Of a stretch of 64,000 bases of DNA, positions 2,909 to 50,799 are shown piece by piece (position 1 is the stretch's first letter; each line of letters starts with the position of its first letter). The stretch is from Zanthoxylum bungeanum (Eukaryota > Streptophyta > Magnoliopsida > Sapindales > Rutaceae), in contig SKCR01010148.1 of assembly GCA_019454045.1 (NCBI GenBank), forward strand, positions 1,054,001 through 1,118,000, read 5' to 3'. The translations under genes and the position numbers were made by a program. Under the pieces are notes generated by a model. That model was not told the origin of the DNA, did no database searches, and saw only the letters and a program-made list of their open reading frames with translations.

Positions 2909-3095
2909 TGATGAGTGGTATTTATATCACTATTTCCCACTCATTTAACCTTATATTTTGTATAGTTTCTTGAGTCTTGTGAATATTTTGATGTGTTTTG
3001 TGTTATTTTGTAGATAAATAAAGTTTCAGGACATTCTGGAGGTGAATTAGAGCAAAACACGAAAAAACTAGACAAAAGGGAAAAATCGTCATTTT

Positions 3096-3477
3096 GGCGT
3101 CGCGACGCCCAGCATGCGCCAGACTTGCTAATGTACGCCGCGGACACGTGGACCAATCAGAGAATTTTGCTAACATGCGCCGCCACTAAAATGCGCCGAT
3201 CATGCTATCTTGCGCCGTGCCACGTGTCGCCATCACAACGAAGATGCTAAAATACGCCAGTGCCACGTGTCGTGATCTAACACTGCCGACAATCGCCCTC
3301 AGTGTGACATAAGCAATGACGTCATGCACAGTGCCACGTCATCGGATAGGGATCTGATCTCTTAGCTGCCTCGCCACGTGTCAAGCCGTCATTGTGCCAC
3401 GAGTCACTTAGCTGGCGTCGCGACGGGAACTGTAGCTGGCGTCGCGACACTGGACCCCTACCCGCGCCTATAAATAG
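3096..3477 (+). promoter_or_regulatory. LTR promoter: G-box/ABRE cluster and TATA box
   Basis: CACGTG cores lie at 3145, 3221, 3264 and 3375, mostly in the context GCCACGTGTC, the classic ABRE/G-box bound by plant bZIP factors. A perfect TGACGTCA (3317-3324) and a CCACGTCA follow, and a CCAATCAG lies at 3153. GTCGCGAC palindromes sit at about 3099, 3417 and 3441. The TATA box TATAAATAG is at 3469-3477. That ABA or stress signalling drives this promoter is inference. Confidence 0.75.
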
Positions 3478-3754
3478 AGCTCGAGATTTCAGTTTTTGTT
3501 GTACCTCTCCCTCCCACTTCTTTGATGTAATTAGGGAGTTCTTCTCTCTCTAAGTTTCTTTTAATTAAGTTTTGTAATTCTTAATTACATTCTGTAATAA
3601 TAATAATTTACTTTCTTTATTTTACAGTTTTTACTACTCATTATGAGGAGGTAACTTCCCCCTGCTAGGGTAAAAGGTAATTCTTTTACTATTGCTACTT
3701 AGATTATTCTCCCATAATTATAATATATTCAATGTTTTAAATTGGACTTAATAA

Positions 3755-3972
3755 GGATACCGCCAGACTGGTCGGTTGGTAATTTAATTCCGCCTATATG
3801 GCTGGTTGTTTTCATTTCGCCTTTATGACTGGTTGTTTTTATTCCGCCTATATGGCTGGTTATTTTGATTCCGCCTTTATGGCTGGTTTATATTAAAATG
3901 ATTCCGCCTTTATGGCTGGTTGTTTTTAAACTGATTAAATCAAGATACCGCCTATATGGCTGGTTGGTAATG
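3755..3972 (+). repeat. LTR minisatellite, seven CCGCCTATATGGCTGG units
   Basis: Seven units of about 28-34 bp share the core CCGCCTATATGGCTGGTTG, separated by T-rich or A-rich spacers. The 3' LTR carries six units (14110-14290) and the solo LTR four (about 18708-18832), so copy number varies within the family. The units lie downstream of the TATA box and would be transcribed. Confidence 0.85.
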
Positions 3973-4877
3973 TTTTGCAAAACTTATATTATATTATGGG
4001 AGAAATCTAATTAGTATATAGTAGAAGTAATTTCTTTACCTTAGCAATTTTATTTTAATTCACTTTCAGCATTTATTTTACCGCATTTACTTTATGCAAT
4101 TTTATTTTAAGTCTTTTAAGTTTTTAGCCCTAGTTATGTGTCGTAGCTAAGTTAGTTATCTAGGGTTGTGATGAATTTCAATTTAACCGGTTTATAAGGG
4201 TTAGATTATAGTTTGGGTAATTTAAAGATTTATTTATTGAGTCTTAATCTTAAAGTTTTTTTATTAACTGGCCATTAATAAATTGATAAGGTAAACTTAA
4301 AATGAACTAGACATAGGGATTTTAAGTTTAAGACCTTAGACTCAATAGCCCACGATCTTCCTTGAGGATAGATAACCCTTTAATAGATTTCCTTACAGGA
4401 TAGAAATATACCTGTCGGGCTAGGGTAGCCATAATTGGAACTTGAACTTAATTAATCTAGGTAATTTGGTTGACATAGACATATGGTTCAATTGGATTAT
4501 ACTAGGTATTTTTAATTGACCATCGGAGAGGCTTTTACATAATTTAGTGTTCCAGGTTAATAAATTGATATATTACCCAACTATAGGATAACTACTTCAT
4601 CTTTTAAATAATATTGAAATAAGTCACAACCCCGGATAGTTTTTTATAAATTGAATTTCATCATTCCACTTAAGCAAAAATTTATTTACTTGTTTTAAAT
4701 TTAGAATCATCACCTTTTTCCAACCAAATCAAATCAATCTGTTAGATACCAGTAACAGTTAACCTCATAAAAATTAATAGATAAGGTTTTAAGTCCTCGT
4801 GGGATCGATACTTTTTATACTACTTGAACGATACGTACGCTTGCGTTATACGTGTGTGTTTACGCCGGTCAAGTTTT

Positions 4878-4896
4878 TGGCGCCGTTGCCGGGGAC
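4878..4896 (+). other. Primer binding site (tRNA-Asp type)
   Basis: TGGCGCCGTTGCCGGGGAC starts six bases after the LTR end at 4871. It is the site expected for Athila-type elements primed by tRNA-Asp. Confidence 0.85.
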
Positions 4897-5003: not shown

Positions 5004-6540
5004 ATGAGACGAACCAGAAGCTTTGAAATCCGACCGCTTGACCCAGAAATTGAAAGAACTATCAGACAGTTGAGAAGGGAAAGGCGAGAAGGCCAAGAAG
5101 CCTTAGTCAACATGGAACCTGAACCTTTGGAGGTTGCACCACCAATTCCCATTCGAGACAGAACCATTCCGGTGGTAGATGGCCTCATTTCATGTATTGT
5201 ACTTCCTCCTTTACTAGCAAATGCAGGTGACATCAAAACTTGCATTTAGATGATTCAGCAAACAGTTCAGTTTGGGGGAAATGCAACTGAAGATCCTAAT
5301 GCCCACATCAGCAACTTCCTGGAAGTTTGCGGCACGTTCAATTACAATCGAGGAGCTGAAGAAGCTATGAGGCTGAGAGTTTTCCCATATTCCCTGAAAG
5401 ACAGAGCAAAAGCTTGGCTACATTCACTACCAGCTGGATCCATTACAACTTGGAACGCTCTAGCCACAAAATTCCTTGCAAAATACTTTCCACCAGCCAG
5501 AACTGCAAAGTGAGAATGACATCACATCCTTTGTACAGTAAGATTCAGAATCCATGTACGAAGCTTGGGAAAGATACAAAGATTTGCTCCGGAAATGTCC
5601 TCACCATGAGATTCCAAAATGGCTTCAAGTCCAAACTTTCTATAATGGACTTTCTGGACTGATGAGAACCACAATCGATGCTGGTGCTGGAGGAGCTTTA
5701 ATGGCAAAAGGAGAAGATCAAGCCTGGGACCTAATTGAAGAAATGGCCAACAACAATTCCTTGTGGCCAACAGAAAGAAGTCTGATTCAAAGAATTGCAG
5801 GAATTTATGAATTGGAGCTAATACAGCAGTCAACACCAAGCTGGATCAGATATGCAAATTTATGAAGACTCTCAACACTCAAAGCACCACTGGATCCACA
5901 AGTTCACCATATGGAGGAGCACCAGAACCACACCAACTTGAATAGACGGTGAATTATGTCAAAACAGACATGGGAACAATCCATATTCCAACACCTACAA
6001 CCCAGGGTGGAGGAATCATCCTAATTTTTCATGGAGCAACAATTCAGGGCAAAAGAACTATCCACCACCTGGATTCCAGCAACAGAATAAAGGCCAGGAG
6101 TAGACAAATGAACCAGTGATGGCAGAGATGTTAGCTCAATTAAAAATATATGAAGCCATGATTCATAGCCAATCAGCTTCCATCAAAGCACTGGAGAATC
6201 AAATCGGACAACTGGCCAATGCTCAGAGTTACAGACCACCAGGTAATCTTCCCAGCAACACAGAACCAAATCCAAGGAACCGAGGGAAGAAGCAATGTCA
6301 AGCCATTACCTTAAGAGCGGTACTGAAATCAACAAAGATGTTGGAATCAAAATGTCCCAAGAAGAAGTTCCAAGAAGCCGAGAAACAGATGAGAGAAAAA
6401 AGAAGCAAAGAAAAAGAAGCAAAGGAAAAAGAAAAAGAACAGATCACTCCACCACATCTTTTTCCTCAGCGTCTTCAGAAAAATAAACTGGACAACACAG
6501 TTTCCTCGTTTCTTGGAGATTTTCAAAAAGCTGCACATTA
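5004..6540 (+). pseudogene. gag of the Athila-like element, degenerate
   Basis: The first ATG is at 5004. The frame stops at 5247, resumes at 5250-5513, then shifts to 5554-5865 and 6116-6541. The 5250 segment shows the retrotransposon gag core: a phrase around TEDPNAHISNFLEV, a short spacer, then a RLRVFPYSLKDRAKAWL block and an F-x-KYFPP block. This order is typical of Athila gag. The 6116 part is a Lys/Glu-rich linker. At least three frame breaks make it non-functional. Confidence 0.85.
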
Positions 6541-7411
6541 ACATACCATTTGCAGAAGCCTTGGAACAAATGCCCAGCTATGTAAAATTCATGAAAGACG
6601 TTCTTTCACGAAAACGAAGATTGGTATATTACGAGACAGTAGCTTTGACAGAAGAATGCAGCGCCATCATTCAGAGGAAACTTCCCCCGAAGTTGAAAGA
6701 TCGTGGCAGTTTCACAGTTCCATGCATCATTGGAGAACAATACATCGGTAAGGCTTTATGTGATTTAGGAGCTAGTGTTAACTTGATGCCTTTTTCTATT
6801 TAACAGGAAACTGCAAATTGGAGAAGCAATGCCTACTTCAGTATCTTTGCACTTGCTGATCGAACACTCGCATTTCCGAGAGGAGTCGTTGAAAATGTGC
6901 TTGTCAAAGTTGACAAACTCATCCTTCCAGCAGATTTCATCATTCTTGACATGGAAGAAGACAAAGAAGTACCTATCATTCTTGGGGGAGACCATTTTGG
7001 CTACAGGTAAAACTGTAATTGATGTGCAAAAAGGAGAACTAACCATGAAAGTGCAGGACCAAGAAGTGACATTTAATGTTTTCAAAGCCATGAAATTCCC
7101 GAGCGATGAAAAGAAGAAGAAGAATGCTTTAGAGTTGATGTTATTGATAGTATTGTTCAGAGTACTGAGCCAAATTCACGGATACACTTGAAGCTTGCAT
7201 CACCAACATGACTGACAGGGAGCTAGATGCTGAAATCATGGAATGCATCAACTACCTTGACAAACCATTCCGATTCAAAGTAACACACCAGTTGAAAGCT
7301 TGGAACTGCCAAAGAAAGATCGAATTAAACCTTCGATTGAAGACCACCGCAGCTGGAACTAAAGTTACTTCCGAGCCATCTCAGGTATGCATTTCTTGGA
7401 AACTCTTCTGA
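6541..7411 (+). pseudogene. Protease region of the Athila-like pol, degenerate
   Basis: The aspartic protease motif appears as CDLGASVNLMP near 6758-6793, where functional copies have D-[LS]-G-A-S. The matching downstream flap and ILGGD-like block (ILGG at about 6980) are in another frame. The frame changes near 6803 and again near 7190-7208. It would have processed the polyprotein. Confidence 0.8.
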
Positions 7412-8990
7412 ATTACCTTGTTATTATTTCTTCTTCGCTAACATTGGAGCATGAAGAAAAAATTATTAAAAGTTTTACGAGAACACAAAAGAGCCATTGG
7501 CTGGACTATAGCAGACATTCGAGGCATTAGTCCATCATTTTGCATGCACAAGATCCTGATGAATGATGAGTAAAAACCCACAGTGGAGCATCAACGGAGA
7601 GTCAATCCAATCATGAAGGAAGTCGTGAAGAAAGAAATCATCAAATGGTTGGATGCTGGCATCATTTACCCCATCTCAGATAGCACTGGGTAAGTCTTAT
7701 GCATGTGTACCAAAGAAAGGAGGAGAATTACTGTTGTCCAATGAAAACAAAGAGCTGATTCCACACAAGAACGGTGACTGGATGGAGAGTATGTATGGAT
7801 TATAGGAAGGTGAACAAAGCCCGAGAAGAATGACCATTTTCCGCTGCCATTCATTGACCAGATGTTAGACAGACTGGCGGGACATGAGTTATATTGCTTT
7901 CTTGACGGATATTCAGGTACAATCAGATTGCTATTGCCCAGAAGATCAGGAGAAAACTACCTTTACATGTCCCTATGGTACTTTTGCTTTCCGCAGGATG
8001 CCATTTGGATTATGTAATGCCCCTGCCCTTTTCAACGTTGCATGATGGCCATCTTCTCAGACATGCTGGAGCAGAGTATGGAGGTTTTTATGGATGATTT
8101 ATGTGTTTGGAGATTCTTTTGACCATTGTTTGAAAAATTTGGAACATGTATTACAAAGGTGCGAAGATACAAACATGGTACTCAATTGGGAGAAATGCCA
8201 TTTCATGGTACATGAAGACATGTTCTTGGACACCGGATCTCACAAAAGGAATTGAAGTAGACAAAGCAAAGATCGAGACAATTGAGAAACTACCTCCACC
8301 AACATCTGTCAAAGGGATTCGAAGTTTTCTTGGACATGCAGGTTTTTACAGGAGATTTATCAAAGACTTTTCCAAGATTGCCAAACCTCTTTGCAATCTC
8401 TGGAAAGGATGTGCCTTTCAATTTCACCAAGAATGCCAGGAAGCTTTCGAGATCTTAAAACAGAAGCTGATTTCTGCCCCCATCATTGTAGCACCAGATT
8501 GGACCCTTCCATTCGAGGTATGGTGTGTGATAGTGATTTGTTGAGGTGCGGTTTTGGGACAACGCAAAGCAAAGATTTTCCACACCACACCATTTACTAC
8601 TACAGCAGCAGATCTGAATGAAGCTCAACTCAACTACACAACCACTGAAAAGGAGTTGCTGCAGTTGTGTACGCTTAAAATTCCGCTCCCTCATATCTGC
8701 TGGGTCCCAAAGTGGTGGTCTACACAGATCATTCAGCAATCAAATATCTGATCACAAGAAAGATGCCAACCCTCATTGATCTGTTGGATACTTCCTTGGC
8801 AAGATTCGACGTGGAAATCCGAGACAGGAAAGGAACAAAAACCAGGTGGCAGATCACTTATCGAGGCTCGAGAATGGAGAAACATATGGCAAAGAATTAT
8901 CAATCAAAGAAACTTTTCCGATGAACAGCTGTTCGCCATGAAACAACAGGAAGTCCCTTGGTATGCTGACTATGTCAACTACATTGTGTC
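7412..8990 (+). pseudogene. Reverse transcriptase / RNase H region, degenerate
   Basis: RT landmarks are present in changing frames: a block ending DAGIIYPISDS near 7650-7685, the MPFGLCNAP motif near 8000-8025, and the catalytic FMDD near 8089-8100. From 8146 the thumb/RNase H part reads PTSVKGIRSFLGHAGFYRRF, followed by an RNase H block with the TEKELL motif near 8645. Stops and shifts between every block show it is not translatable. Confidence 0.85.
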
Positions 8991-10250
8991 AGAAAAATGG
9001 CCGTTGGAATGGACACTCAGCAACGGAAGAAGTTCTTCAAAGAGTCAAACACTATGTTTGGGATGAACCGTACCTGTTTAAAACGCTGTGCTGATCAATT
9101 ATTGAGACGGTGTGTTCCACAGGAAGAAGTCAACAGTGTTTTTTTCACACTGTCATTCATCACCATACGGCGGACACTTCAGTGGAAACAAACTGCAGCC
9201 AAAGTCCTTCAATCAGTTTTTCTGGCCCACACTTTTTAAAGATGCTTATCTTTTTTTTGCTTTCAATGTGACAGGTGCCAGAAACCGGGGAATATTTCGA
9301 GGAGAACAAAAGACCATTGCAAAAAACATTCTGGAATGGAAATATTCGATGTATGGGGTATTGATTTCATGGGACCCTTTGTTTCCATCATTTGGAAACA
9401 TGTACATCTTGGTTACTGTAGATTACGTCTCCAAATGGGTTGAGGCTTGCACTGCCATCCAATGATTCCAAGTGGTGATCAAATTCCTGAAAAAGAATAT
9501 TTTCACTCGTTTGGAACACCTCGAGCAATCATCACGATGGTGGCTCTCATTTCTGCAACAAATACTTCGATGCACTCATATCCAAATATGGAGTTACTCA
9601 CAAATTGCCACAGCTTACCATCCACATCAAATGGACATGTTGAGGTTTCAAACAGGGAATCAAGAGAATCCTAGAAAGAACCGTTGGATCAACAGGAGGG
9701 ACTGGTCTACAAACTAGATGATGCATTATGGGCCTACTAACCGAACAGCTTACAAGACACCCATTGGTTATGTCTCCATATCGATTGGTGTTTGGGAAAG
9801 CATGCCATCTGCCAGTTGAGCTTGAACACAAGGCGTACTGGGCACTGAAGAAGTTGAATCTTGACTCACAAGCTGCAGGAGAGAAAAGACTTCACACAAC
9901 TCAATGAATTGGAGGAATTTCGCCTACAGGCTTATGACAATGCCAATTAATACAAGGAAAAGACCAAAAAATGGCATGACCGAAAAATAGTGCACAGACA
10001 GTTTGGACCAAGGCAGCAGGTGTTGTTATACAACTCGAGGTTAAAACTTTTCCCCTAGAAAGTTAAATCTAGGTGGTCTGGACCATTTGTGATCACTCAG
10101 GTTTTACCATATGGAGCTGTTGATTACTGGATCCCAATACCAATAACACATTCAAAGTTAACAGTCAGCGTGTCAAGCACTACTGGGGAGAATCATTTGA
10201 GCGACAAAAGAAAGTGTCACACTTTCAGATCCAGCATAAACGTTCAAGAA
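8991..10250 (+). pseudogene. Integrase region of the Athila-like pol, degenerate
   Basis: A His-rich zinc-binding segment (HSSPYGGH near 9133), a Cys-bearing partner further on, the DFMGPF catalytic-core block near 9361-9380 and a VDYVSKWVEA block near 9419-9450 identify the integrase. The [19 protein letters not shown] block near 9775-9830 is typical of plant gypsy integrases. Frames change several times. The pol sequence ends near 10250. Confidence 0.85.
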
Positions 10251-10278
10251 GTCACGTCTAGCTGACAACTTTAAACTT

Positions 10279-10302: not shown

Positions 10303-10381
10303 GCAATTTTTGTATATATTGTGATTTGGTGTGATTTATTTTGTGTGTTTAGTTTTCTTCGCAGATTAAGTCATTTCCAAG

Positions 10382-11126
10382 ATGGAAGAAGTTCTCGCAA
10401 ATCTTCACAAGCAATTTCCTTCTCTCTCCCTCAAATCTCTATGAAAGTCTACAAAGCTCACTTGGAACGGATGAGGTTACTGACGATCTATGGTGTTCCC
10501 AATGAACATTCGTTGGGTAATTGAAGCACGAGTCTGATTGGCAGGTGAGTCTTCTGACTCTTTTATTTCACACTTGTCTGGTTTTGGAAGAAGCACCTAT
10601 GCAAAGAAACGAAGAGCTAAGCAAATGGGTGTTTGTTACAAATGTGCACGTTGGAATTGCAACACTCGTTGTTGTTCTTTAGGAATGGTGTCTGTTAATC
10701 GCGAAGACAAAATTAAATTCATTAGGGATGGCTTGAGTAAGGAGTCTTTAGATGATATATCTTCGAATCTTGAGACGCATCCCAGTGGATATGTTCACAT
10801 AGACTTTCGCAGATTACATACACAATTTCAAAAAGAAAGACAACAGTTAAGTCTTGGGAATCTGACTAAAAAAGACCCTGTTTGCCAATTTATAAGAAAA
10901 TTGGATGGGAAGCTTGTCCCTGACGCATAGACGTTAATCAAGCTGTAAATTTTTGTACATATTATATCTCTCTTTGTCTTTCCTAATAATTTGATTTGTT
11001 TTGTTGTTTTCTTTTGTTTTCTCCGACAGGATCCAGATCTTGTTGACTATCACGATCTATTTTACTATTTTGCTACTAATCGTCCTTTGGAAGATACTTG
11101 TGCTATTTTTACTCACCCTTTTCAGG
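10382..11126 (+). pseudogene. Accessory ORF set in env position, function unknown
   Basis: I do not recognise this protein. Three exon-like pieces can be seen. The first starts at the ATG at 10382, just after a TTCTTCGCAG acceptor-like site. The second, about 10545-10930, encodes a basic start (AKKRRAKQ), a Cys cluster (CYKCARWNCNTRCC) and a charged helical part. The third, 11031-11126, is preceded by TTTTCTCCGACAG and followed by a CAG/GTATT donor, and encodes DPDLVDYHDLFYYF-like sequence. The first piece is interrupted by a frame break near 10440. The splice-like borders suggest a genomic rather than processed origin, unlike the LOG copy that follows. It could be a diverged env-like protein or a captured host gene. 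Confidence 0.45.
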
Positions 11127-11193: not shown

Positions 11194-11848
11194 ATGGAAG
11201 CCACTTCAAGAAGACGAGTTGAAAATATTTGTGTGTTTTGCGGTAGTAGTGTTAGTACTAAACCACAATACATAGAAGCAGTACAGGAATTGGGTCGAGT
11301 CTTATGCTGCAAGGAATATGCACTTAATATATGGTGGAGGAAATCTCGGACTTATGGGGATCGTTTCAAAGGCCGTACAGGAAGGAGGCAGTCACGTTTT
11401 GGGAATCATCCCAAAACCCTTGGCAGAAGCAAATCTTATTGGATCATCAAACGGAGAGGAACTGATCGTGCCAGGTATGTCTGAACGACTGGTAGAAATG
11501 ATTAACCGTGCTGATGCTTTTATCGCTTTGCCAGGTGGCTTAGGTACATTGGAGGAAATTTTTATTGTGTTATCTTGGGCGAACCTGAACATACACCAGA
11601 AACCGCTTGGACTACTCAACGTTGATGGATTTTATGATTTTTCTTTGTGTGTTTCTTGATGATGCTCGTAGAAATGGGTTCGTGTCAAAACCTATGAAAG
11701 AACTCCTATTACTGCCAGAACTGCTCTGAATCTGATAGACCAACTCATAGCCCATGAACCACAAGTTGACCCTATCCTATCAAAGATAAATTGGTCTGAG
11801 GACGATCGTGGTAAAAGGCGTCGAATTAATCTGGATCTTAACCTTTAA
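11194..11848 (+). pseudogene. LOG-like cytokinin phosphoribohydrolase copy in retrotransposon
   Basis: The segment encodes a protein of the LOG family, which cleaves cytokinin riboside 5'-monophosphates to active free cytokinin in the cytosol. It spans 655 bp, equal to about 217 codons, the usual LOG length. Seen in order: NICVFCGSS near the N-terminus, GGGNLGLMG (nucleotide site, about 11333), the MSERLVEM helix with the Arg expected in the active site, and the signature PGGLGTLEE (about 11531). After it come a [18 protein letters not shown] block and a divergent tail ending RRINLDLNL before a TAA at 11846. Three frameshifts (about 11317, 11640 and 11705) break this copy. Host LOG genes normally have several introns; none is present, so capture through an mRNA is likely. 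It lies between integrase and the polypurine tract. Confidence 0.8.
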
Positions 11849-12512
11849 TTTCCTGTAGATTTCAGCTAATCAGGTACAACCTTCTAACTCTCTTTTTACT
11901 GTTTAAGACATTGGGGACAATGTCTCATTTAGGTTTGGGGGAGGGAATTAGTTGATTAGTACCTTGTTTTTAGTTTGTATGTTGTTTTTATTTTTAGTCC
12001 AAAATTTTTTGAAAAATACAAAAAAATTAGAAAATTTTCAAAAATTACAAAAATATTTTGTGTTTTCTTTGTGTTTTGACTAAAAATGTGAAATTGGTAA
12101 GATGTAGTTGAGTAAGGAGTTCCCACTCCTGATACGTATCTCAAACCATTTATTTTCGAAATAAGTTAATTTTTGTTGGTTTCCTTTTGAATTATTTAAT
12201 TTGTAAATTCTCCATAATACTAACTAAAATGGATCTTTTTTATGCTCAGTTGGCAGGTATTATCAACATACATGGAAACATACGGTCATGAGCTAAAATT
12301 GAAAAGTTTGTAATATTCAGTTATCTAGTTTAATTGGAGGAAGCATCTCTAAATATGATGGAGTAAAAAAAATAAAAATTCTGATTTACAAAAATAAAGT
12401 ATCTAAGATCCGGGTTATTAAGTCTGTAAGGGTGTTTCAACACCTAGTGCCCTAAAACCAACTGGTTTGGGAGTCACTGGCCCAAAGCTCGTTACATGGA
12501 TCGAAGATGCTG

Positions 12513-12579
<67 letters not shown>

Positions 12580-13223
12580 GAAGTTTGAGTAATTAAGTTC
12601 GTAGGGGTGTCTTAACACCTGGTGCCCTAAAGCCAACTGGTTTGGGAGCCACCGACCCAAAGCTCGCTACATAGACGGAAGGTATTATATATAAATAAAA
12701 AAAGAAAAAGAAAAAATCAAAGAAAAATCAGAAAAATGAGAAAAATTATTCCATTGCTACGACAAGGTGTGAAATCTGATAGAACTGTAGGACAAAAATA
12801 TTACTGTCTTATCAACTGCACTTATGACTGTTGTGGGCAAAAATGAGTTGATTAATATTTTGTTGGCTGTGTATATGGAGAATGGTAAAAATAATCGGAG
12901 AATTTACTTATTCGGTAATTTAAAAAGAAACAAAACAACTAGTGACTTGGAGTAGAATTTTCACCTGATTAGTCACTAACTTCTTTATTCTCTTTTCGCT
13001 TGTCTTTTTGATTTTGTGTGCATTAGTTTTACTACCTTTTTACTTTTGTAAAATGTTTGTGGGTATCATTGCTGTAAACCCTCACGAGACTACAACTCGT
13101 CCACTAGGGACACCTAGGGGTTTAAAGGCTTGTTGCATATGCTAAATGCAACCGTGATCCCTACGAAAGTGGCTTAGTTAATTTATGTTATTCTATGTTT
13201 TGCTCGAGGACTAGCAAAATGTT
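11849..13223 (+). other. Non-coding 3' region of the Athila-like element
   Basis: No gene is seen. A GGGGACAATGTCTC block followed by TTTAGGTTTGGGGGAGGG lies near 11912-11944. It resembles the 3' non-coding region of plant gypsy elements, and the AGGTTTGGGGG part recurs at the polypurine tract. The region also holds the (TA)n repeat and its flanking duplication. Confidence 0.6.
12419..12687 (+). repeat. About 93-bp direct duplication flanking a (TA)n microsatellite
   Basis: Two similar copies, about 12420-12512 and 12595-12687, share AACACCT-GTGCCCTAAA, CCAACTGGTTTGGGAG and CCCAAAGCTCG blocks. A run of about 30 TA dinucleotides (12515-12577) sits between them. The ORF that crosses it (a Tyr-Ile run) is not a gene. 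Confidence 0.85.
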
Positions 13224-13236
13224 AGGTTTGGGGGTG
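13224..13236 (+). other. Polypurine tract of the Athila-like element
   Basis: AGGTTTGGGGGTG directly precedes the 3' LTR start TGATGAG and fits the plus-strand priming site. Confidence 0.75.
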
Positions 13237-15196
13237 TGATGAGTGGTATTTATATAACTATTTCCCACTCATTTAACCTTATATTTTGTATAGTTTCTTG
13301 AGTCTTGTGAATATTTTGATGTGTTTTGTGTTATTTTGTAGATAAATAAAGTTTCAGGACATTCTGGAGGTGAATTGGAGCAAAACAGGAAAAAAACTGG
13401 ACAAAAGGGCAAAATCGTCATTTTGGCATCGCGACGCTGAAGCCTTTCGCGTCGCGACACCCAGCATGCGCCAGACTTGCTAATGTACGCCGCAGACACG
13501 TGGACCAATCAGAGAATTTTGCTAACATGCGCTGCCACTAAAATGCGCCGATCATGCTATCTTGCGCTGTGCCACGTGTCGCCATCACAACGAAGATGCT
13601 AAAATACGCCAGTGCCACGTGTCGTGATCTAACGCTGCCGACAATCACCCTCAGCGTGACGTAAGCAATGACGTCATGAACAGTGCCACGTCATCGGATA
13701 AGGATCTGATCTCTTAGCCGCCTCGCCACGTGTCAAGCCATCATTGTGCCACGAGTCACTGTAGCTGGTGTCGCGACGCGGAACTGTAGCTGGCGTCGCG
13801 ACGCTGGACCCCTACCCGCGCCTATAAATAGAGCTCGAGATTTCAGTTTTTGTTGTACCTCTCCCTCCCACTTCTTTGATGTAATTAGGGAGTTCTTCTC
13901 TCTCTAAGTTTCTTTTAATTAAGTTTTGTAATTCTTAATTACGTTCTGTAATAATAATAATTACTTTCTTTATTTTACAGTTTTTACTACTCATTATGAG
14001 GAGGTAACTTCCCCCTGCTATGGTAAAAGGTAATTCTTTTACTATTGCTACTTAGATTATTCTCCCATAATTATAATATATTCAATGTTTTAAATTGGAC
14101 TTAATAAGGATACCGCCAGACTGGTCGGTTGGTAATTTAATTCCGCCTATATGGCTGGTTGTTTTCATTCTGCCTTTATGGCTGGTTGTTTTTATTCCGC
14201 CTGTATGGCTGGTTATTTTGATTCCGCCTTTTTGGCTGGTTGTTTTTAAACTGATTAAATCAAGATACCGCCTATATGGCTGGTTGGTAATGTTTTGAAA
14301 AGCTTATATTATATTATGGGAGAAATCTAATTAGTATATAGTAGAAGTAATTTCTTTTACCTTAGCAATTTTATTTTAATTCACTTTCAGCATTTATTTT
14401 ACCGCATTTACTTTATGCAATTTTATTTTAAGTCTTTTAAGTTTTTAGCCCTAGTTATGTGTCGTAACTGAGTTAGTTATCTAGGGTTGTGATGAATTTC
14501 AATTTAACCGGTTTATAAGTGTTAGATTATAGTTTGGGTAATTTAAAGATTTATTTATTGAGTCTTAATCTTAAAGCTTTTTTATTAACTGGCCATTAAT
14601 AAAATTGATAAGGTAAACTTAAAATGAACTAGACATAGGGATTTTAAGTTTAAGACCTTAGATTCAATAGCCCACGATCTTCCTTGAGGATAGATAAACC
14701 TTTAATAGATTTCCTTACAGGATAGAAATATACCTGTCAGGCTAGGGTAGCCATAATTGGAACTTGAACTTAATTAATCTAGGTAATTTGGTTGACATTG
14801 ACATATGGTTCAATTGGATTATACTAGGTATTTATAATTGACCATCGGAAGAGGCTTTTACATAATTTAGTGTTCCAGGTTAATAAATTGATATATTACC
14901 CAACTATAGGATAACTACTTCATCTTTTAAATAATATTGAAATAAGTCATAACCCTGGATAGTTTTTTATAAATTGAATTTTCATCATTCCACTTAAGCA
15001 AAAATTTATTTACTTGTTTTAAATTTAGAATCATCACCTTTTTCCAACCAAATCAAATCAATCTGTTAGATACCAGTAAACAGTTAACCTCATAAAAATT
15101 AATAGATAAGGTTTTAAGTCCTCGTGGGATCGATACTTTTTATACTACTTGAACGATACGTACGCTTGTGTTATACGTGTGTGTTTACGCCGGTCA
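13237..15196 (+). repeat. 3' LTR of the Athila-like element
   Basis: It matches 2909-4871 over its full length. It carries an extra TCGCGA block near 13448, one minisatellite unit fewer, and scattered substitutions. Its TATA box is in the CCTATAAATAG block near 13821. Confidence 0.92.
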
Positions 15197-15212
15197 AGTT
15201 TTTGGCGCCGTT
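15197..15212 (+). other. Second primer binding site stub after the 3' LTR
   Basis: The 3' LTR is followed by AGTTTTTGGCGCCGTT, the same spacer and primer site that follow the 5' LTR. After 15212 the match stops. This LTR therefore also served as, or recombined with, the 5' LTR of another copy. Confidence 0.8.
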
Positions 15213-15508: not shown

Positions 15509-16530
15509 GTCAAACCGATTGACCAAACATTGATCCGAGCCAACCCGGTCACTTAGGCAGTGACTGGTTAGCCCTTGGGCTGCCCCAAACAGTGACCATT
15601 GCTTCGATAATCGTGACACGACGAGCCCGTATTGACGTGATTTTCACCGTTTTCTCGCGTTTTTGTCCCGGAATAATTTTCGGAATTAATCCACCCAATA
15701 CACATCCAAAAATCATCCAAATAACATATATTTTTAATGAAAAATATTCTGTTTTAGGGCACCGAATCAGATCTGATCCAGAAATATTATTATCCATTTT
15801 TCATGCCAAAAATAAATTTATTCACAAAATTAATCCAATTAATTTACAACAAAATTAATCCCCACAATATAAAGTTCCAAGAATAATTCTAGGTAATATT
15901 TGAGTGGTAATAATCACTCTAGAATAGCAATTTTAATTTTGAGATTAATTCACTAATTAATCTTTTACACATGCTTAACAAAAGAAACTAATTAAGATTA
16001 AACAAACAACCAACACCAAGTTTTGATTCAAATATATATATATAACATGCAATATACATATCTCATACATATTTACATGCTTATGAAACAAAAAACCAAG
16101 AAATTAGAAGTTATCAAGTTCCAAATTTCCAATCTTCTTCTTCATTTGGTGTTGATGTTTTGTTATTTAACCCTAACCTAATTTTTCTTTTGTTCTCAAC
16201 TCCTGAGAAATGACCAAGCCTTTACAAAATGAAACAATTTCATCTATATATTTTCCTTTCACAAGACCGAAAATTAGGCAATTTTTCTTCAAAAATCATA
16301 ATTTATTTAGGCCAAGATTTTGACACATATTGATCTTATCCAAATTGAATAATTATTTTGATATTTTTGTTAATAAATTCATGTGTCAAAAATACATGGT
16401 TTAGCGAATTAAACTTGGCCAAATTATTAAGAATATTCCAAGTAATATTCTTAACCCAAAAATAAATAAATAAATAATTAATTAATTTATCTAATGCCTA
16501 TTAACAAAAGATAAAATACATTATGGAAAA
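15509..16530 (-). repeat. Copia 3' LTR, part 1 (truncated)
   Basis: It matches 25988-27090 of the other LTR. About 220 bp of the LTR terminus are missing, where the hAT MITE and Athila stub now join. It carries a short (TA)6 at 16029 where the other LTR has a run of about 32 units. Confidence 0.8.
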
Positions 16531-16720
16531 TGATGAGTGGTATTTATATCATTATTTTCCACTCATCTAACCTAATATTTTGTATAGTTTCTCGGGTTTT
16601 GCGAATATTTTGATGTGTTTTGTGTTATTTTGTAGATAAATAAAGTTTCAGGACATTCTGGAGGTGATTTGGAGCAAAACAGTGAAAATTGGCAAAAAGG
16701 TCAATTTTGTAATTTAACAG

Positions 16721-17222
16721 CGTCGCGACGCCTAAAGTGCGCCGGCCATGCTAACGTGCGCCGAGGGACACGTGTCAGAATCTGAGAAATTGGACTTGCT
16801 AACGTGCGCTGACCTTGCTAATGTGCGCCGTGTCACGTGTCATCACCACATAAGATCTGCTAAAATGCGTCGGCTGCCACGTGTCGAAATCTCATTGGAC
16901 CAAAGCAAGCGCGTGCCACTTGTCAATCTCTCATTGGACCGAATATTGGATAAATCATATTTTGCCACGTGTCGACCTCTCATTTGACTGATCCTAAGCG
17001 CGTGGCACGTGTCAACTTTTTATTGGACCGAAAGATCAGCCAATCACCGTGTGCCACGTGTCGTCTTCTCATTGCACCACATTCACCGTGTGACACGTGT
17101 CATCACCAGATTCTGCCGACAGAACACGCGTGGTCAACTCGCGTGGACCAAAGCCGCGTGCTGGCGTCGCGACGCCAAGACCCTACGCGTCGCGACGCCA
17201 GTTGCCGAAAATGCCTATAAAT
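16721..17222 (+). promoter_or_regulatory. Solo LTR promoter with seven G-boxes and CCAAT repeats
   Basis: CACGTG occurs at 16769, 16834, 16878, 16966, 17006, 17055 and 17094; a decayed CACTTG lies at about 16917. Most sit in CCACGTGTC followed within about 20 bases by CTCATTGGACC, an inverted CCAAT box, so the unit is a repeated G-box plus CCAAT pair. GCGTCGCGACGC palindromes lie at 16720, 17164 and 17187, the last two just before the TATA box (TATAAAT, 17216). Confidence 0.75.
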
Positions 17223-17291
17223 TCAGGACTTATTCACTTCATTTGGTGTGCTTTCCTTGGGAGATTTTCCCTGTTTTTAGAGGATTGCATC

Positions 17292-18482
17292 TAGGGATGG
17301 CAATTTCCGGATCCGGATCCGCAACTTCTTTTTTGGACCCGGGTCCGGTACCGGACCGGGAAAAAGACATCCGGGTCCGGGTCTGGATCCGGGTATACTC
17401 GGAATGGACCCGGGATCCGCAACTTTTTTTTTTATTCAAATAATCAAATTCAATACTATACTATTACTATGTAATATGTATTAACAATATCACAAAAATC
17501 AATAAGTTTGAATACATATTATAAATGTGATAAGTTTGAATTGGAAATTACAAAACTCATAAAAACATTTAAATTTGAACTTCAAGTTTCTTGAACACTA
17601 GGCTAGGCCACATTACATATCATAATTCATAAACAAAGTACAAGGAAAAAAGTTCAACACAAACACAAACACACGATTTGGCACACTCACTTAACACAAG
17701 CACACGATTTGGCACACTCACTTAACACAAGCACAAAGTAAAAAATTACAGAAGAATGAACACATGGCTAATTACCTGAACAAGACACATAGCGAATTGA
17801 TCAAGTGATATAATTTCATTACAACCTATGAATTAACCTAATAATCCATTATGAATCAACAATTTCATGATTTGGCACACTCACCTCAACAATTTCACCT
17901 TAACAGTACAATTTCAATTTATTTTTTAAATTTAAATAAATAAAATTTTTAAAAATTGATCAAGAAATCAGAAAGCAAGTGGAAGTTAGTCTGTTACTGA
18001 AGATGGTGGCTGACCGTCGATCGCTGACTGCCTTTAAGATTTCTGTCGTCGTGACTCGAGCCGTCGTGCGTGCAGCGTGATTGCGTGAAGAATGAAGACT
18101 AAAGATGGTGGCTGGCTGGCTGCGTGAAGAGTGAATTGTGTTTAGTTTAGAGATGGTGGTTGTTTGGTTTGGTGGCAGTGGCAGGGGGTGGCTGCGGCCT
18201 GCGTACGTGTGTGAGGTGAGGACTGAGGTGATGAGGTTTAGAGGAAATGGAAATAGGGATTTAGGGTTATGAATGACAGAATGAGTCAAAATGACTTATG
18301 TTTTTTTTTTTCGTTTTTTTAATAAAAAAATCGGGTCCCGGGTAACCCGAATCCGAAATTTCCCAGACCCGCATCTGGACCCGGGACAGTGCGGGTCTGG
18401 GAAATTCATAACCAGATCCGCAATTTTATTTTTACGGATCCGGGTAGACCTGGGCCGGGTCCGGGTCTGGTTGTCATGCCTA
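17292..18482. mobile_element. Non-autonomous hAT element, 8-bp target duplication ATTGCATC
   Basis: The termini TAGGGATGGCAATT and (reverse complement) TAGGCATGACAACC form the inverted repeat. ATTGCATC flanks both sides (17284-17291 and 18483-18490). Subterminal DNA is rich in GGATCCGGGTCCGG words on both ends. The 1191-bp interior has no transposase. It sits in the transcribed part of the solo LTR, so it is the youngest layer of a three-level nest. Confidence 0.92.
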
Positions 18483-19688
18483 ATTGCATCTAGTTTTGTA
18501 TAAATAAATAATATTTTTAATTATGTATTTTAATTTTCAGTAATAGTAATATTAGTTCTTCTTCTTCTTTTTTCTTTTATGTTTAGTAGTTAATTTTCCG
18601 CTGGGATAAAAGGTGAAACCTTTAATATAATTATCTAGGTAAATCTCACTTAATTATAATTTATAAATTATAATTTAACCGGATTAATTAATGTCAGACT
18701 TTATTACCGCCTATATGGTTGGTCTAAATATAAATTACTTTACCGCCTATATGGCTGGTCTTTATGTGACAGATAATTACGCTTATATGGCTGGTGTAAT
18801 GGACTAAATGGATTACCGCCTATATGGCTGGTTTTAAATGTTTAACATTATTAATTCCTGAGAAAGCAGAATATAAAATAATTTATATATTATAATAAAT
18901 GAGATTCCTAGATAAGAAATATTAATTGTGGATCCTCTAACCCCAGCATTTTATTTTTATTCTAGGGAAGTGATGAAACACAATATCCACACTTAATAAT
19001 TGATTTTCTTTTTATGGGTAATTCTTTAGTTTGTTTATTGAGTCGTAAGCTTAATGCTTCTTGTTGTCTGATCACCAATAATATTGCTATGGTAAATCTA
19101 AAATGAACTAGACATAGGGATTTTAGGTTTCAGCCTTAGACTTAATAGCCAACGATCTTCCTTGAAGATAGATAACCCTTTAATAGATTTCCTTACAGGA
19201 TAGACATATACATGCCGGGCGGGGGTAGCCACAATTGGAACTTAATCTTAATGAATCCAGGTAATTTGGTTGACATAGACATATGGTTCAATTGGGTTAT
19301 ACTGGGTATTTGCGTCTGACCATCGACAGAGGTTTTTGCATATTTTCGTGTTCCAGGTTAGCAAACTGATTTATTACACATAGATAAGAGAATCAATTCA
19401 TCTTTATAATAATTTTGTGTGGAGTCACGACCCTAGATCCTTGAGTCTTTTCTTTTATTTTCCTTAGTATTTTCTTTTGAGTCTGTTTTTATTTTATTTT
19501 GCAAAACCACATTCAACCAATCAAAAGCAATCAATTCCCTTCTCCATATAATTAGATACCTGTAAATAAATAGATTCAATAATTAATAACAACAGTAGGA
19601 ATTAAGTCCTCGTGGGATCGATATTTTTATATTACTTGAACGATACGTGCGCTTGCGTTATACGTGTGTGTTTACGCCGGTCAGAAAA

Positions 19689-20831: not shown

Positions 20832-22758
20832 CTAGTTCCAAATTTGATGGTATCTAATGATCATCGCCTCTACATGTCTATCATATAGTTTCGGAGGCAA
20901 GGCCTTCATAAGCATATCTGCTATGTTGTCATCTCCGGATATCTGGAATATGACAACGTCTCCTCGAGCGATAATCTCTTGAATAATGCGGTACTCTCGC
21001 TCCACATGTGTTGACTTCCGATGCGCTCTCGGTTCTTTTATCTGTGCAACGGTACCACTATTATCACATAACAACGGAATCGAATCCTCGATGCTTGGGA
21101 CAACTCCCAATTCAGTGATAAATTTTTTAATCCATACAGCTTCCTTTGCAGCATCTGATGCCGCAATATATTCCGCCTCGGTTGTGGAATCAACTGTTGA
21201 TAATTGTTTGGAACATTTCTAACTAACTGCAGCATTATTAAGAGTAAATACAAAATCTGAGGTAGACTTTCTATCATCAAGATCTGACTGAAAGTCATAA
21301 TCTGTATATCCTCTTATTTGTAAATCACATTCTCCATAAATAAGAAACTCATCCTTAATACCTTTTAGATACTTTAGGATATGTTTAACGGCCATCCAAT
21401 GGTCGTTACCTGGATTTGACTGATATCTGCTAGTAACGCTTACTGCATGACTAATGTCAGGTCTCGTACATAATATGACATATATGATGTTTTCTAAGCA
21501 TGATGTATAATGTTGACTAGACATTCTAGCCTTTTCATCTTCCGTTTGAGGACACATCTTTTTCGAAAGATGAATGCCAGGTCGAAAAGGTATATTAGCA
21601 ATTTTACAATCGCTAAAGTTGTACCTTTGTAGGATCTTATCTATGTACGACGATTGAGATAACCCAATTAGCCTCATTTATCTATCTCTATAGAGTTTAT
21701 ACCAAGTATATAGGAAGCTTCACCCAAGTCATTCATGGAGAAGTTTTTACAGAGATATGCTTTGACACCCTGCATCATTCCAAGATCATTTCCAATGATC
21801 ATGATATCATCAATGTAAAGCACCAAGAACACTATCATACTCCCACTAATCTTTTTATAAACACAGGGTTCTTCTTCATTTGTGAGAAAACCAAACAATC
21901 TGATTACCTCATCAAAACGAAGATTCCAACTCCGCGAAGCTTATTTCAGTCCATAAATGGACTTCTTAAGCTTACATATTAATCCAGAATTTTGGCTGGA
22001 GACAAAACTCTCCGGCTGTTCCATATAGATTTCTTCACCAAGAAATCCATTAAGAAAATTCGTTTTGACATCCATTTTCCAAATATCATAATCATGGTAA
22101 GTAAGATAGCCAATAAAATCCTAATAGACTTTAGCATCGCTACTGGTGAAAAGGTTTCATCATAGTGTACGCATGGCCTTTGAGTATAACCTTTAGAAAC
22201 CAGTCGGGCTTTGAAGGTTTCAACCTTCCCATCAGGCCCTCGCTTTCTCTTGTAAACCCATTTACAACCTATGGGAACAATTCCCTCAGGAAGCGGAACC
22301 AAGTCCCATACTCGATTCTGATTCATATAGTCTATTTCGGAATTCATGACTTCCTGTCATTTAGAGGAATCAATATCTAATATTGTTTCTCTGTAGGTAT
22401 ACAAACCAGTCTCCTCAACAAGGAGCACATCGAGACTCTTATCTTGTATCAAATACAAGCGCTCAGGAGATCTCGATATCCTAGTAGACCTACGGATAGT
22501 GGAATTAGAAGGTTCTGCTTCTATTTGAACCTGTGATTCCTCTATTGGTCTGTCTTCTATAGGTTGGACTTCAACAAGCTCAACCTTCTTATGATTACCA
22601 CATTCTTCCAAAAATTCTTCTTCAAGAAATTTGGCAAAACGAGCTACGAACACATTTCGATGCTCAGGTTTATGGAATTGATATCCTTTGGAATTCGAAG
22701 GATATCCAACAAACCTAACTTTTCGCCCTCGAGGCAAAAGTTTATCACGCTGCATCAC
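20832..22758 (-). pseudogene. Copia reverse transcriptase / RNase H, degenerate
   Basis: Reading leftwards, 22758-22357 is the integrase C-terminal linker with a GRKVRFVGYPSNSKGYQF block. 22347-21979 starts RT (GCKWVYKRK, ARLVSKGYTQ). 21898-21674 holds the catalytic YIDD within LYIDDIMIIGND. 21677-21219 carries the RT thumb and a DRKSTS motif. 21298-20832 is the RNase H end with an ADMLMKALP block. Each piece lies in a different frame or is cut by a stop, so there is no intact polyprotein. Confidence 0.88.
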
Positions 22759-22759
22759 T

Positions 22760-24551
22760 CTGATGTATGCATGACAGCCTTAAACCCTAACATAATTAAG
22801 GTTCGGTTTCCTACCAACCCATATCTCATATGGAGTAGTAGGAACAACTTTAGAATGAACCATATTCAGCAGATGTGCAGCAGTAAGAGGAGCATACCCC
22901 CCACAAAAAGTAAGGTAGATATGTAAAACTCAACATGGATCAGACCATATCCAATAAAGTTCAATTTCTCTTTTAGATACTCCATTGTGCTGTGTAGTAC
23001 CCGAAGGAGTATATTGAGCGAGAATCTCATTCTCTTTAAGATACTCTATAAACTCACTACTCATATATTCACCGCATCGATCTGATCATAGGCATTTGAT
23101 GAATTTATCGGTTTATTTTTCTACTTCATTTCGAAATTCTTTAAACCTTTCAAAGGTTTCCGACTTATGTTTCATCAAGTAAACATAACCATATCGTGAC
23201 AAATCATCGTTAAATGTTACGAAGTAAGAAAAACCACTATGAGCAGTATGACTTATATGACCACATACATCACTATGTACGAGATCCAATAAGTCTGTGG
23301 CCCGATGTCCAACACCAGTAAATGAGGCTTTGGTCATTTTACCCTGAATGCAAGATTCATAAGTTGGAAAAGACTGTATGGTTAAATTCCCAATCAAATC
23401 ATTCTTAACCAACTGGGTTAGGCGTCCTACACATATATGTCCTAACCACATATGCCATAATTCAGTATTAGTAATTTCATATCTTTTACGTTTACTATTC
23501 CCAATTTTATAAACATCTCTAATGGCATGCAAAATATAATGACTATATGAATTTGAACATTTGTGTAACAAAACATCATTCATATCATATATATACATAG
23601 AACGATTCTTAATATGTACATGATATCCTTTTGTATTTAATACAAACAATGAGATAATATTAGCTACACATCCATGTATAAAACACAATCTGCCAAAATG
23701 ATGATGCCTCTGGATAGTCGAATCTCATATTCGCCAATGGCTACTGCAGATAAAGAATCTTCATTCCCAAAATGCAGCTACTTCTCACCTGGATCCAGCA
23801 TTCTACTAACCCCCAGTCCCTACAACGAATTACAGATGTGAGTATGAATAGCAGAATCTAAAACCCATCCAGAATCTATGGCTTCACAAGCCAAAAAGAT
23901 ATCAATGATAGGGAAAATAAATATACCTGATGCGGCGGCTCTCTCCCATCCGACAGAAGCTATGTAATCTGGACAGTTGCGCTTCCAGTGTTCAATCTTG
24001 CCACAGTGGTGGCATTTGTCGTCAGCAGCTTTCTTCTTCGACTTGTCTGGCTTCACTACTTTTCCTTTGGGAGGAACACCGGAGCCAGTCTTATTTGTGT
24101 TTTTCTTCTTCTTCTTGCCAGATCTCGTAGATTGAGAAGGAGAAGAACTAGGCAAATAGGACTTCGAAATGAGTATCAGCACATCTTTTTTGATTTCCTC
24201 CTTAACAGTCTGAAGCATCTTATGCAATTGATTGTAGGAACAATGAATGCCATGCATGTTGAAATTCATAATATACTAAAAATATGACAGTGGGGGTGAG
24301 CCAAGAATCAGATTCCTACCCATAGTCTCATTCAGCTGGAAGTCAACCCTCCTAAGTTGTTCGATGAGATCCATCATGTGTAGGATATGTGAACTCACTG
24401 GCTTACTATCATCCAAACGAGCGTGAAACAATTCCACGAAGATCTTATATACCAAGGTCTGCTCCTGGTCTAAAAACAACTCCCTAAGTTGAGTTATAAT
24501 ACCGAATGAGTCAGACATATCAACATATTGCCTCTTCAAATCAGAAGACAT
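22760..24551 (-). pseudogene. Copia gag, protease and integrase, degenerate
   Basis: 24551-24276 is the gag core. 24269-23820 has a Lys-rich linker, a zinc knuckle CHHCGKIEHWKRNC and the protease start WVLDSAIHTHIC, where the usual D-S-G triad has become D-S-A. 23688-23113 holds the GAG-pre-integrase motif (LWHMWLGHI) and the start of the integrase core with HSDVCG and a D-D pair. About 22770-23110 is further integrase sequence full of stops. Confidence 0.88.
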
Positions 24552-32919: not shown

Positions 32920-35900
32920 TTAAAAACCCTGATCAATTAGATAATCGCCCAGCCTTTCCACAATCATGTTGCACTGACCAGGAGTCATAAGCTCATCATA
33001 TATACCAATTATCAAGGACAGATTGGTCTTCTTCACTGTAACACCACCAGAGCCCTGAAATACATGTTCATTCAATTAATTAACTGAAACTAAAACACAA
33101 GTAAAATGTATCATGTTATTGATCAATTATGTACAAGCAGAGCCATATAACCCCATAAATTGAGTTGTTTCCTCTTTCCAATAAAAAAAGAAAAGCTGTT
33201 TGATTCCCCGAAAGTTGACAAGCAAAATATGATATACCCAGCACCATTCTGTTTTCAAGGCCAAAAACTTGCATAGACCAACTGCAATTTCATAATCCTT
33301 AAAGAATCAGTCGGTCAAATAATACCACACAATCTCAGTTTCCCATAGCTTAAGCTATTACATTAACTACTCAAAACTACCATGATGCAGGATAACCAAA
33401 GTGATTTTAACCATCAAAAAGATCTAACTTTGAATGAACATCATAAACAGCAGTTCTTCATGAGATTAAAAGTATGTATAAAATAAATTATTAACTTTAG
33501 CTTAGACCCATATAAGAAGATTTAAGAAATTCTTAAAAGTAAATGTTTCTTTGAAAGGCATGATACCACAATAGCAGGTGCATCAGTAAATGTAAAAGGA
33601 CGTGATACCATAGTCCATAGTCGTAGTCTCACCTTCTTTCCTCGTATGACGGCCCCTGGTTCACCTTGGATCACCATATACTTCACACCACCAAGGTGTA
33701 AACCAGTTGGTGCAAGAGTCCCAGGTTCCGCAAAGTCATTCATAATGGCTGTTATTTCTGCTGGTGTAACCTGCATACATCCAAAAATCACACACCGTGA
33801 AAATTAAGCAAACAAACCAAACCAAACCAAACAAAGCCTTTTCTCATTAGGTGGGGTCAAATACATGAATCTTTTGACGCTATTGTACGACTTAAGAAAG
33901 AAAAAGTATAACTTAAACAACTACAACGAACTTTTCAATTAATAATCCACCTAGATACAACTATGTTGCCAGAATAGTCAACATCACAAAATAGACATTG
34001 TTAAAATCAAGTATCAACTAAACTGGGAAGTAAACATAGGCTGCCAGGCAGGTGATGCACGCGCACAGCACACAGACAAAAGTTAATTTCGAAATCCACA
34101 CGGTCATATACTACTCTATACATATTACTGAACTAGCCAGGACATATTCATAATATAGCTGATTGAATACTCGGCACATCTTACAAGTACAACAATAGCA
34201 CGGTATTGCAAAACATAATTCAGAAGTATGACCACATTTATTTAATATCCAGCTACATCAATTCATCACCACCATTCATGCATCACCACCATCAATGCAT
34301 AAACATCCAAGGCAACTTTAGGTGGGTTTGAAAATGGTGCAAGATTACAAACAAACTTTAGGTGGATCACTATTCCTTTGTTGACAATTGAGCCTTGTAT
34401 TTGGCTATAAATTGGGAGCTCATTTGAGAGCTCAAATCACCCCAAAAACATTAAGCTTCAAGAGAAAAAGCTTAGAGAGTGTGTAGAAGTAAGTTTTTTT
34501 TGTAAATAGTTTCAATACTTGTAATTTCTATTATTATAAGTAATAGAATCGGTTTTTTCCTCAAAAACAATCTATAGTGATCAGAGAATCACAACAAGTG
34601 GTATCAGAGTTTTGGTTATACATTGGGGTCGTAAAACCGAATAACGGAACTCGGTTCTGAAAATTCGGGTTTCGGGAAAGTTGTCAAAAATTAATTTTGA
34701 ACATACCATCAGCTAGTTCACGTCGAGACGAGCACGGTGGCATTTTCCGGCGATCGAACGGAGGTCCAGGGACGCCGCACGCGCCTGCATGCGCCGGCAA
34801 ATGAAGCCCACACATAGCACGCGCCAGACCAAGGTTGAAGACGCTAACGTGTCATCCACGTCAGCGCACAGTCATTGCCGAGTAAGCAGCTACGCCAGCG
34901 ACACGTCATCCACCATGTCAGCGCCGGTCGAGTCAGTAGCCACATCACATGCCTCGTCAGCATACCTGGTAAATTTCATTGAGCCCCTGAAGTCTCTGAA
35001 ATTTACATTTTAGCCCCAAAAATATTTAGAAATTACAAATCGGTCCCTGAGTCAAATTTGGACCAACGAAGTGTCTAATCCACCATTTTCGAACGTTCCG
35101 GACACAACGGTGACCTATGATTTGTGAAAATCAGACCTAATTTTGTCCTATTTTCATTTTAAACTATAAACTTAAAATGGAAATGGAAGATTCCCCTTCT
35201 GGTGCGATGATCAAGCTGACAGCAACCAATTACTCCTTCTGGAGGCCTCAGATGATAGATTATTTGCACTGCAAAAATCTATTCGATATGATCGAGGTGA
35301 AGGGAGTGAGATCAGATTCTGTCAAAGAGAGTGACTGGAATAAACTCAACAATAGAACTTTGCGTCAGATTAGGCAGTGGATCGGCCACAGTGTCTTCCA
35401 CCACATAGCACAGGATACAGATGCTTACGAAATGTGGATAAAACTGGAAAACATGTTCCAGGCCAAGACAACTCGGAATAAAGCTCTGTTAATGAGGCGA
35501 TTGGTGAATTTGAAGCTACGGAGTGGAACTTCCATTACAGAACATACCAATGAGTTCCAGAGCCTGGTGAATCAGTTGTCTACAGTACACATGCAGCTGG
35601 GAGATGAAGTATCAACCCTTCTACTACTTAGTTCTCTCCTGATACCTGGGAGACATTGGTGGTTGCTCTCAACAATTCGACTCCAAGAGGCAAACTTACC
35701 GTGCCTATGGTAAAAGATGCCCTGTCGAATGAAGAGTCCAGGAGAAAAGATGTTGGCTCAGAACAGACAAAAACATTCGTCACAGAGACTCAAGGAAGAC
35801 ATCGAGGAAGAGAAAGAGGGGGAGGCTGAAGCACAATCAAAGGTAGATCCTCAGATGGAAGGAAGCCTACCTATAAGTGCTGCCATTGTGACATAGAAGA

Positions 35901-50790: not shown

Positions 50791-50799
50791 GGGACATAC

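Follow-up and report, generated by a model that had tools for sequence, protein, structure and literature searches.

A LOG-derived gene and an NABP-like gene behind the integrase of a decayed Athila-type element

Anatomy of the element

The window, a stretch of 64,000 nt, carries a decayed element of Athila type (Ty3/gypsy), in which an NABP-like gene, resembling by Pfam the nucleic-acid-binding proteins (NABP) of flexiviruses, and a LOG-derived gene lie one after the other between the integrase and the 3' LTR (Table 1). The two LTRs differ at 40 of 1945 columns of a pairwise alignment, about 2%, and the LOG gene is enclosed by them, as the original prediction had it. The assignment to Athila agrees with an LTR pair around an internal gag-pol region, of which the pieces in the window, matching Retrotrans_gag, RT_RNaseH_2 and Integrase_H2C2, all score below the Pfam cut-offs. 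Positions 8664-10186 match the RNase H/integrase open reading frame of a related 3330-bp sequence, L004, in tblastx.

Table 1. Features of the element and the evidence on which each was placed
Feature	Position in window	Strand	Basis and remarks
5' LTR	2909..4871	+	Pairwise LTR alignment, K2P 0.021; ends at GGTCA
Likely primer binding site, TGGCGCCGTTGCCGGGGA	4878..4895	+	Starts 6 bp past the 5' LTR
Remnants of gag, RT/RNase H and integrase in a broken gag-pol region	5360..10260 (limits approximate)	+	Pfam and tblastx
Possible splice acceptor (polypyrimidine tract with CAG), 17 nt ahead of ATG 10382	10335..10364	+	Rank 5 of 562 AGs
NABP-like gene of 182 codons, disrupted by frame changes and a stop codon in frame	10382..10930	+	Pfam; colinear with open 182-aa relatives
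Two possible splice acceptors ahead of LOG, first exon bases 11030 and 11126	11000..11125	+	Ranks 2 and 1 of 562 AGs
LOG-derived gene of 217 codons with three frame changes; ends in KRRRINLDLNL	11194..11848	+	Pfam, PDB matches, alignment to P0002
Polypurine tract abutting the 3' LTR	13222..13236	+	Sequence
3' LTR	13237..15196	+	LTR alignment; followed by 16 bp shared with the stretch after the 5' LTR

The LTR alignment extends 16 bp past both LTR ends, and positions 15197-15212 repeat the sequence that follows the 5' LTR, part of the primer binding site included. A 5-bp target-site duplication of the element was not found, with GTAAA on the left facing AGTTT or ATCAA on the right. The right end of the element looks either rearranged or derived from an aberrant reverse transcription product. 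The likely primer binding site, TGGCGCCGTTGCCGGGGA, presumably pairs with tRNA-Asp; no tRNA genes were found in the 64,000-nt window. For Diaspora/Calypso, of the Athila lineage, the accessible portion of PMC1142308 gives a tRNA-Asp primer binding site 5 bp past the LTR. The predicted position of LOG between the integrase and the polypurine tract holds for the tract that abuts the 3' LTR; a similar run, TTTAGGTTTGGGGGAGGG at 11928-11946, right after LOG and 1.3 kb before the 3' LTR, is an additional one. A run resembling TTTAGGTTTGGGGGAGGG also comes after the NABP gene of L004, at about position 2600.

Other repeats surround the element. Pieces 83-96% identical to its LTR occur at 16525-19683 and may belong to an older, interrupted LTR from a related element. 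Remnants resembling copia-type polyproteins were recognized by eye from the list of open reading frames at 21219-24275 (minus strand) and 35141-37431 (plus strand). Two tandem repeats are present, one at 496-937, with four register copies at 85-bp spacing, and one at 49721-50955, where two overlapping frames are open over 335 and 363 codons, probably as an effect of the repeat.

The two accessory genes

The main frame of the LOG-derived gene (11276-11656) matches PF03641 with 105.1 bits at a cut-off of 27, and LOG proteins of the PDB match it as well, the best being At2g37210 (PDB 2a33; E 5.7e-39), which we take to be LOG3. Both LOG signatures, including PGGxGTxxE, and the arginine before the second signature are present. 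Alignment to the open relative P0002 needs no gaps from codon 1 (ATG 11194) to codon 217 (stop 11846-11848), with the codons spread over three frames, which confirms the LOG-type gene with three frameshifts that had been predicted. One frame change lies past about codon 37, and a pair lies near codons 150 and 172. The three frame-changing indels compare with 1.7 expected from the LTR indels (probability of at least three, 0.24); such a count is compatible with decay after insertion, so that the frame could well have been intact at the time of insertion. P0002, P0003 and P0004, the full-length proteins nearest to it, show 90-92% identity in the part that matched, and each has an uninterrupted frame of 217 aa; copies with an open LOG frame thus exist.

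Host LOG genes contain introns. The gapless, intronless copy inside the element agrees with the suggestion that an mRNA copy was captured into the env position, but two genes, instead of a single one, occupy that position. A separate insertion of LOG, with a poly(A) tail or target duplication of its own, had been considered from the outset, and the LOG flanks show no sign of it: no poly(A) was seen behind the stop codon, and the longest words shared by the flanks (9) are no longer than is common in shuffled flanks. Open relatives paired with an NABP gene occur elsewhere. Among viral contigs, one search returned no LOG, and another returned three loci at 29-30% identity.

The NABP-like gene, absent from the original prediction, lies upstream of LOG. 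Its piece at 10538-10927 scores 26.5 bits with PF01623, a carlavirus nucleic-acid-binding family, above the cut-off of 20.9, and 21.4 bits with PF05515, below the cut-off of 23. Both families score above cut-off in all five open NABP proteins scanned, in one of them by just 0.1 bit, and in the L004 copy PF05515 alone does so; in the relatives the PF05515 match spans 58-88 residues around the finger. There are 351 relatives, and the best 120 of these include proteins from Xanthoceras, Populus, Acer, Parasponia, Rhamnella and Orobanche. No NABP was confirmed in viral contigs. A basic stretch, KKRRAK, stands directly before the finger cysteines C85, C88, C93 and C97 (numbered as in P0150), each residue being at least 90% conserved in 88 sequences. 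The finger spacing, CX2CX4CX3C, is unlike the CX2CX12CX4C given for a carlavirus in the available text of PMC8839810, and the gene is therefore classified as a relative, not a member, of the flexivirus NABP/CRP genes.

This gene has evolved under purifying selection. Between the window and L004, dN/dS is 0.26 (bootstrap 0.15-0.41; 139 codons), compared with 0.88 and 1.06 in the slid frames. The dS of 0.72 (10508-10927 against L004:1925-2344) is much lower than in two integrase blocks of the same two elements, of which one is saturated and the other reaches 2.9; this hints at module exchange or at constraint on the DNA itself.

NABP and LOG stand side by side, and the pair recurs in Xanthoceras and Acer. 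In Xanthoceras, the LOG gene ACOSQ2_032186 (P0248) and the NABP gene ACOSQ2_032187 (P0141) bear consecutive tags and lie on a 21,981,555-bp contig; in an Acer yangbiense gene model of 334 aa (P0251), NABP runs into LOG. Three more LOG/NABP pairs, matched by equal contig size (4511, 8723 and 2128) from selected sizes compared, are suggestive only. In L004, an integrase open reading frame and an intact NABP gene are followed, with no LOG between, by the 3' motif that comes after LOG in the window. The place of LOG between NABP and this shared motif fits a later addition of LOG, and NABP is probably the older of the two in the element lineage, although a single element without LOG is not enough to settle which came first. 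L004 is DAIEQH010000041.1, filed in a bacterial MAG (Candidatus Nomurabacteria), and reads as plant retroelement DNA; it is probably a contamination of that genome record.

Possible splice acceptors precede both genes. By a simple home-made score over all 562 AGs of the element, three of the top five directly precede NABP and LOG, in leaders that contain 18 of the 562. The top acceptor of 161 in L004 likewise precedes the NABP gene, and the second best lies inside it. Because T-rich non-coding DNA scores well anyway, these scores are a hint of spliced RNAs and not a demonstration.

Re-shaping of the LOG lineage

The LOG lineage of the element is re-shaped: the lysine beside the signature arginine has mostly changed, and a basic and LxLxL tail has mostly been gained. 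The comparison was based on 166 window-type proteins, taken as the LOG matches without the host motif, with P0269 and P0281 left out as host-type. This type is defined by sequence, and few of its members were found in an element context, namely those in the window, in Xanthoceras and in Acer and perhaps those of the three contig pairs. The 151 proteins with a readable LPGG, 105 of 205-225 aa for column counts, 107 in the table of tail and lysine, and 114 full-length ones for tail counts form the denominators below. The protein collection lists open frames only, which biases it to intact copies.

A tree of 75 rows was built from the window, four reference chains, 56 of the 166 window-type proteins and 14 of the 31 host-type ones. 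The 56 window-type proteins and the window formed one clade of 57 rows (support 99/95), apart from 16 host LOGs: the 14 host-type proteins, LOG7-type or unnamed, from eudicots and monocots, and Arabidopsis LOG3 and LOG8. The genera named in the clade are Xanthoceras, Acer, Populus, Reevesia, Diplodiscus and Paulownia, and the window LOG is nested within it, nearest to P0004. With just 16 host LOGs in the tree and a long branch, the depth of the capture is unsure and undated. In a 16-row alignment, window-type LOGs show 49-88% identity to P0002; their length scarcely varies, and the signatures are kept.

The C-terminal LxLxL occurs in 87 of 114 full-length window-type proteins and in none of 31 host-type ones, with a basic cluster ahead of it in 85 of the 87. 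In Xanthoceras and Acer the proteins end with the basic patch itself (KKRRLA, KRRRLD or similar) and have no LxLxL. The EAR motif is defined as LxLxL; the tail of the window gene and those of the same 87 relatives conform to it, but LxLxL can easily arise.

The lysine that follows the signature arginine is present in all 35 host and reference (Arabidopsis and bacterial) rows versus 9 of 105 window-type ones; by a wider count it is kept in 16 of 151, and in the window its position is taken by leucine (SERLVE). The signature arginine is kept in 139 and the glutamate in 149 of the 151, which argues for some remaining enzyme function; glutamine replaces the arginine in 10. Lysine keepers make up 11 of the 107 proteins tabulated: seven from Xanthoceras, three Acer-like ones (P0029, P0030 and P0034, of which P0029 groups with Acer in the tree) and P0079. 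The last is the sole keeper with LxLxL and the first branch of a 50-member clade that holds all LxLxL rows. Its place suggests that the tail preceded the loss of the lysine, or that the tail was lost in the Xanthoceras and Acer-like groups.

Possible roles and known systems

The two genes are best explained as a nuclear accessory pair, a LOG protein with a basic patch and an EAR-like tail and an NABP-like finger protein, in which enzyme activity would be reduced or changed. An ancestral element that already carried NABP would have acquired a plant LOG gene in a single event, by way of its spliced mRNA, and spliced RNAs would serve to express both genes, as they do for retroviral env. The LOG product may then have changed its job, the basic patch and LxLxL tail bringing it to the nucleus and letting it bind TOPLESS-type corepressors, while the nucleotide pocket may be kept with altered or no cytokinin-releasing activity. 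Together with NABP, it might blunt host silencing or defence and favour the dividing cells in which the element can spread. The element itself would be a copy that inserted recently and decayed afterwards, from a long-lived, retrovirus-like lineage of Athila type with two sense accessory genes behind the integrase. Taken as a whole, this explanation is given a probability of roughly 0.55. Several viral proteins of the NABP kind suppress silencing, and p12 of CVB is a transcription factor that causes hyperplasia, according to the available text of PMC12172455. A wider and more speculative version, which we hold only tentatively, would make the lineage common to rosids and asterids, with a two-gene module of a flexivirus-type suppressor or transcription factor and a LOG turned nuclear EAR-type repressor, directed against silencing and for proliferation, and with NABP exchanged between RNA virus and retroelement.

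Mobile cytokinin activation, the role first proposed, implies that the element carries a working enzyme which, once expressed, would increase active cytokinin and promote cell division. The LOG identity in this proposal stands on Pfam, PDB matches and both signatures, and the mostly kept arginine and glutamate, together with the arginine-lysine pair in the seven Xanthoceras and the Acer-like proteins, speak for activity. The rise in cytokinin is made doubtful by the loss, in most of the lineage, of a lysine that all 35 host, Arabidopsis and bacterial rows retain and by the new tail that most members have; the glutamine found in place of the arginine in some relatives points the same way, and the window copy is both broken and without the lysine. 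A working enzyme is thus a possible but rather unlikely alternative. A similar standing is given to the view that NABP resembles the flexivirus proteins by convergence on a basic patch and a zinc finger, without kinship. The different finger spacing favours it, as does the fold model of NABP, which is weak (pLDDT 67, pTM 0.32; a 16-sequence model was discarded at pLDDT 49): no viral structure matched it with E at or below 0.001, the best match reaching E 0.07, and TM-scores by query were at most 0.23. Scores above curated cut-offs for two Pfam families, with PF05515 matching over 58-88 residues around the finger, argue against convergence, as do 17 of the 32 viral matches of the weak model, which by name and virus are flexivirus suppressors, NABPs or similar small proteins, in a program that also weighs sequence.

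LOG may instead be a passive passenger, a processed cDNA caught once and carried without function. The broken copy in the window and the absence of LOG from L004 would suit this, and gene capture by LTR elements, often in few copies, is described in the accessible part of PMC7264820. Set against it are a single clade to which six named genera contribute full-length open members and, despite the divergence from P0002, a near-constant length, kept signatures and a common new tail. The argument from open members is weaker than it looks, given a collection that shows open frames only; even so, a functionless passenger seems improbable. It is about equally improbable that the proteins from Populus, Reevesia, Diplodiscus and Paulownia represent normal host genes and that the window LOG was captured from that host clade. 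They are annotated genes, those of Populus under the name LOGL10, but the Reevesia and Xanthoceras clusters hold many near-identical members (P0275, 28; P0286, 29; P0244, 39; P0245, 35), which may span several assemblies, and NABP is adjacent in Xanthoceras and fused in Acer. The LOG domain is moreover placed in Gypsy elements of P. trichocarpa in the available text of PMC9289625.

If the nuclear accessory pair is the true reading, plant retroelements evolve accessory genes that counter host defence, just as retroviruses do. Athila-type elements resemble retroviruses, and the env position is here occupied by two identifiable, conserved genes. Open copies of both are present in sequenced plants, which makes their function directly testable.

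Steinbauerova et al. 2011 (Genetica 139:1543) reportedly found two Athila-like elements with similarities to LOGL4. The original prediction knew of no described LTR element with a LOG gene; this is contradicted by Alvarado-Marchena et al. 2022 (PMC9289625), whose accessible text reports a YgdH/LOG domain in Gypsy consensus sequences of Citrus sinensis, C. clementina and P. trichocarpa. In that screen of 121 angiosperm genomes, the poplar LOG was found without the filter of the study, and the result is called "in line with" Steinbauerova et al. 2011. The core finding, LOG in a Gypsy element, was accordingly already known from what that text reports. Those elements share with the present one a LOG-derived gene inside plant Ty3/gypsy elements and very probably belong to the same lineage. 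The main text of the paper, as available, uses none of the terms Carla, NABP and "nucleic acid binding", nor does its section 12 describe a change of tail or active site. A term search of the accessible text of PMC13317346, PMC6317226 and PMC11963269 gave no mention of cytokinin, and for PMC11963269 none of Carla. The Tpb1-1 polyA "retrogene" (PMC1142308) was considered as an earlier sighting of LOG and is unusable, with no identifiable open reading frame in the portion of the source available. No report of a carlavirus-type NABP in LTR elements or of EAR motifs encoded by retrotransposons was evident in the literature searched, and as far as that literature goes the NABP neighbour gene and the re-shaping of LOG are apparently new.

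Three known systems can be compared with the pair. The cysteine-rich (CRP) or NABP proteins of carlaviruses, allexiviruses and mandariviruses (PF01623, PF05515) likewise have a basic stretch directly before a C4 finger and share the Pfam domains; the element protein differs from them in its 182 aa, its long conserved C-terminal half, its finger spacing and its residence in an LTR element. The host LOG7-type cytokinin riboside 5'-monophosphate phosphoribohydrolases belong to the same family as the window-type LOGs and are alike in length, signatures, arginine and glutamate, whereas the window type is without the introns known from host genes, has the basic and LxLxL tail, and has mostly lost the invariant lysine. 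The Phalaenopsis Gypsy element with an AlkB m6A demethylase is also an LTR element in which a cellular enzyme has been fixed as an accessory open reading frame; it differs in its enzyme and in its host plants, and for AlkB the activity has been shown in vitro, according to the available text of PMC9289625.
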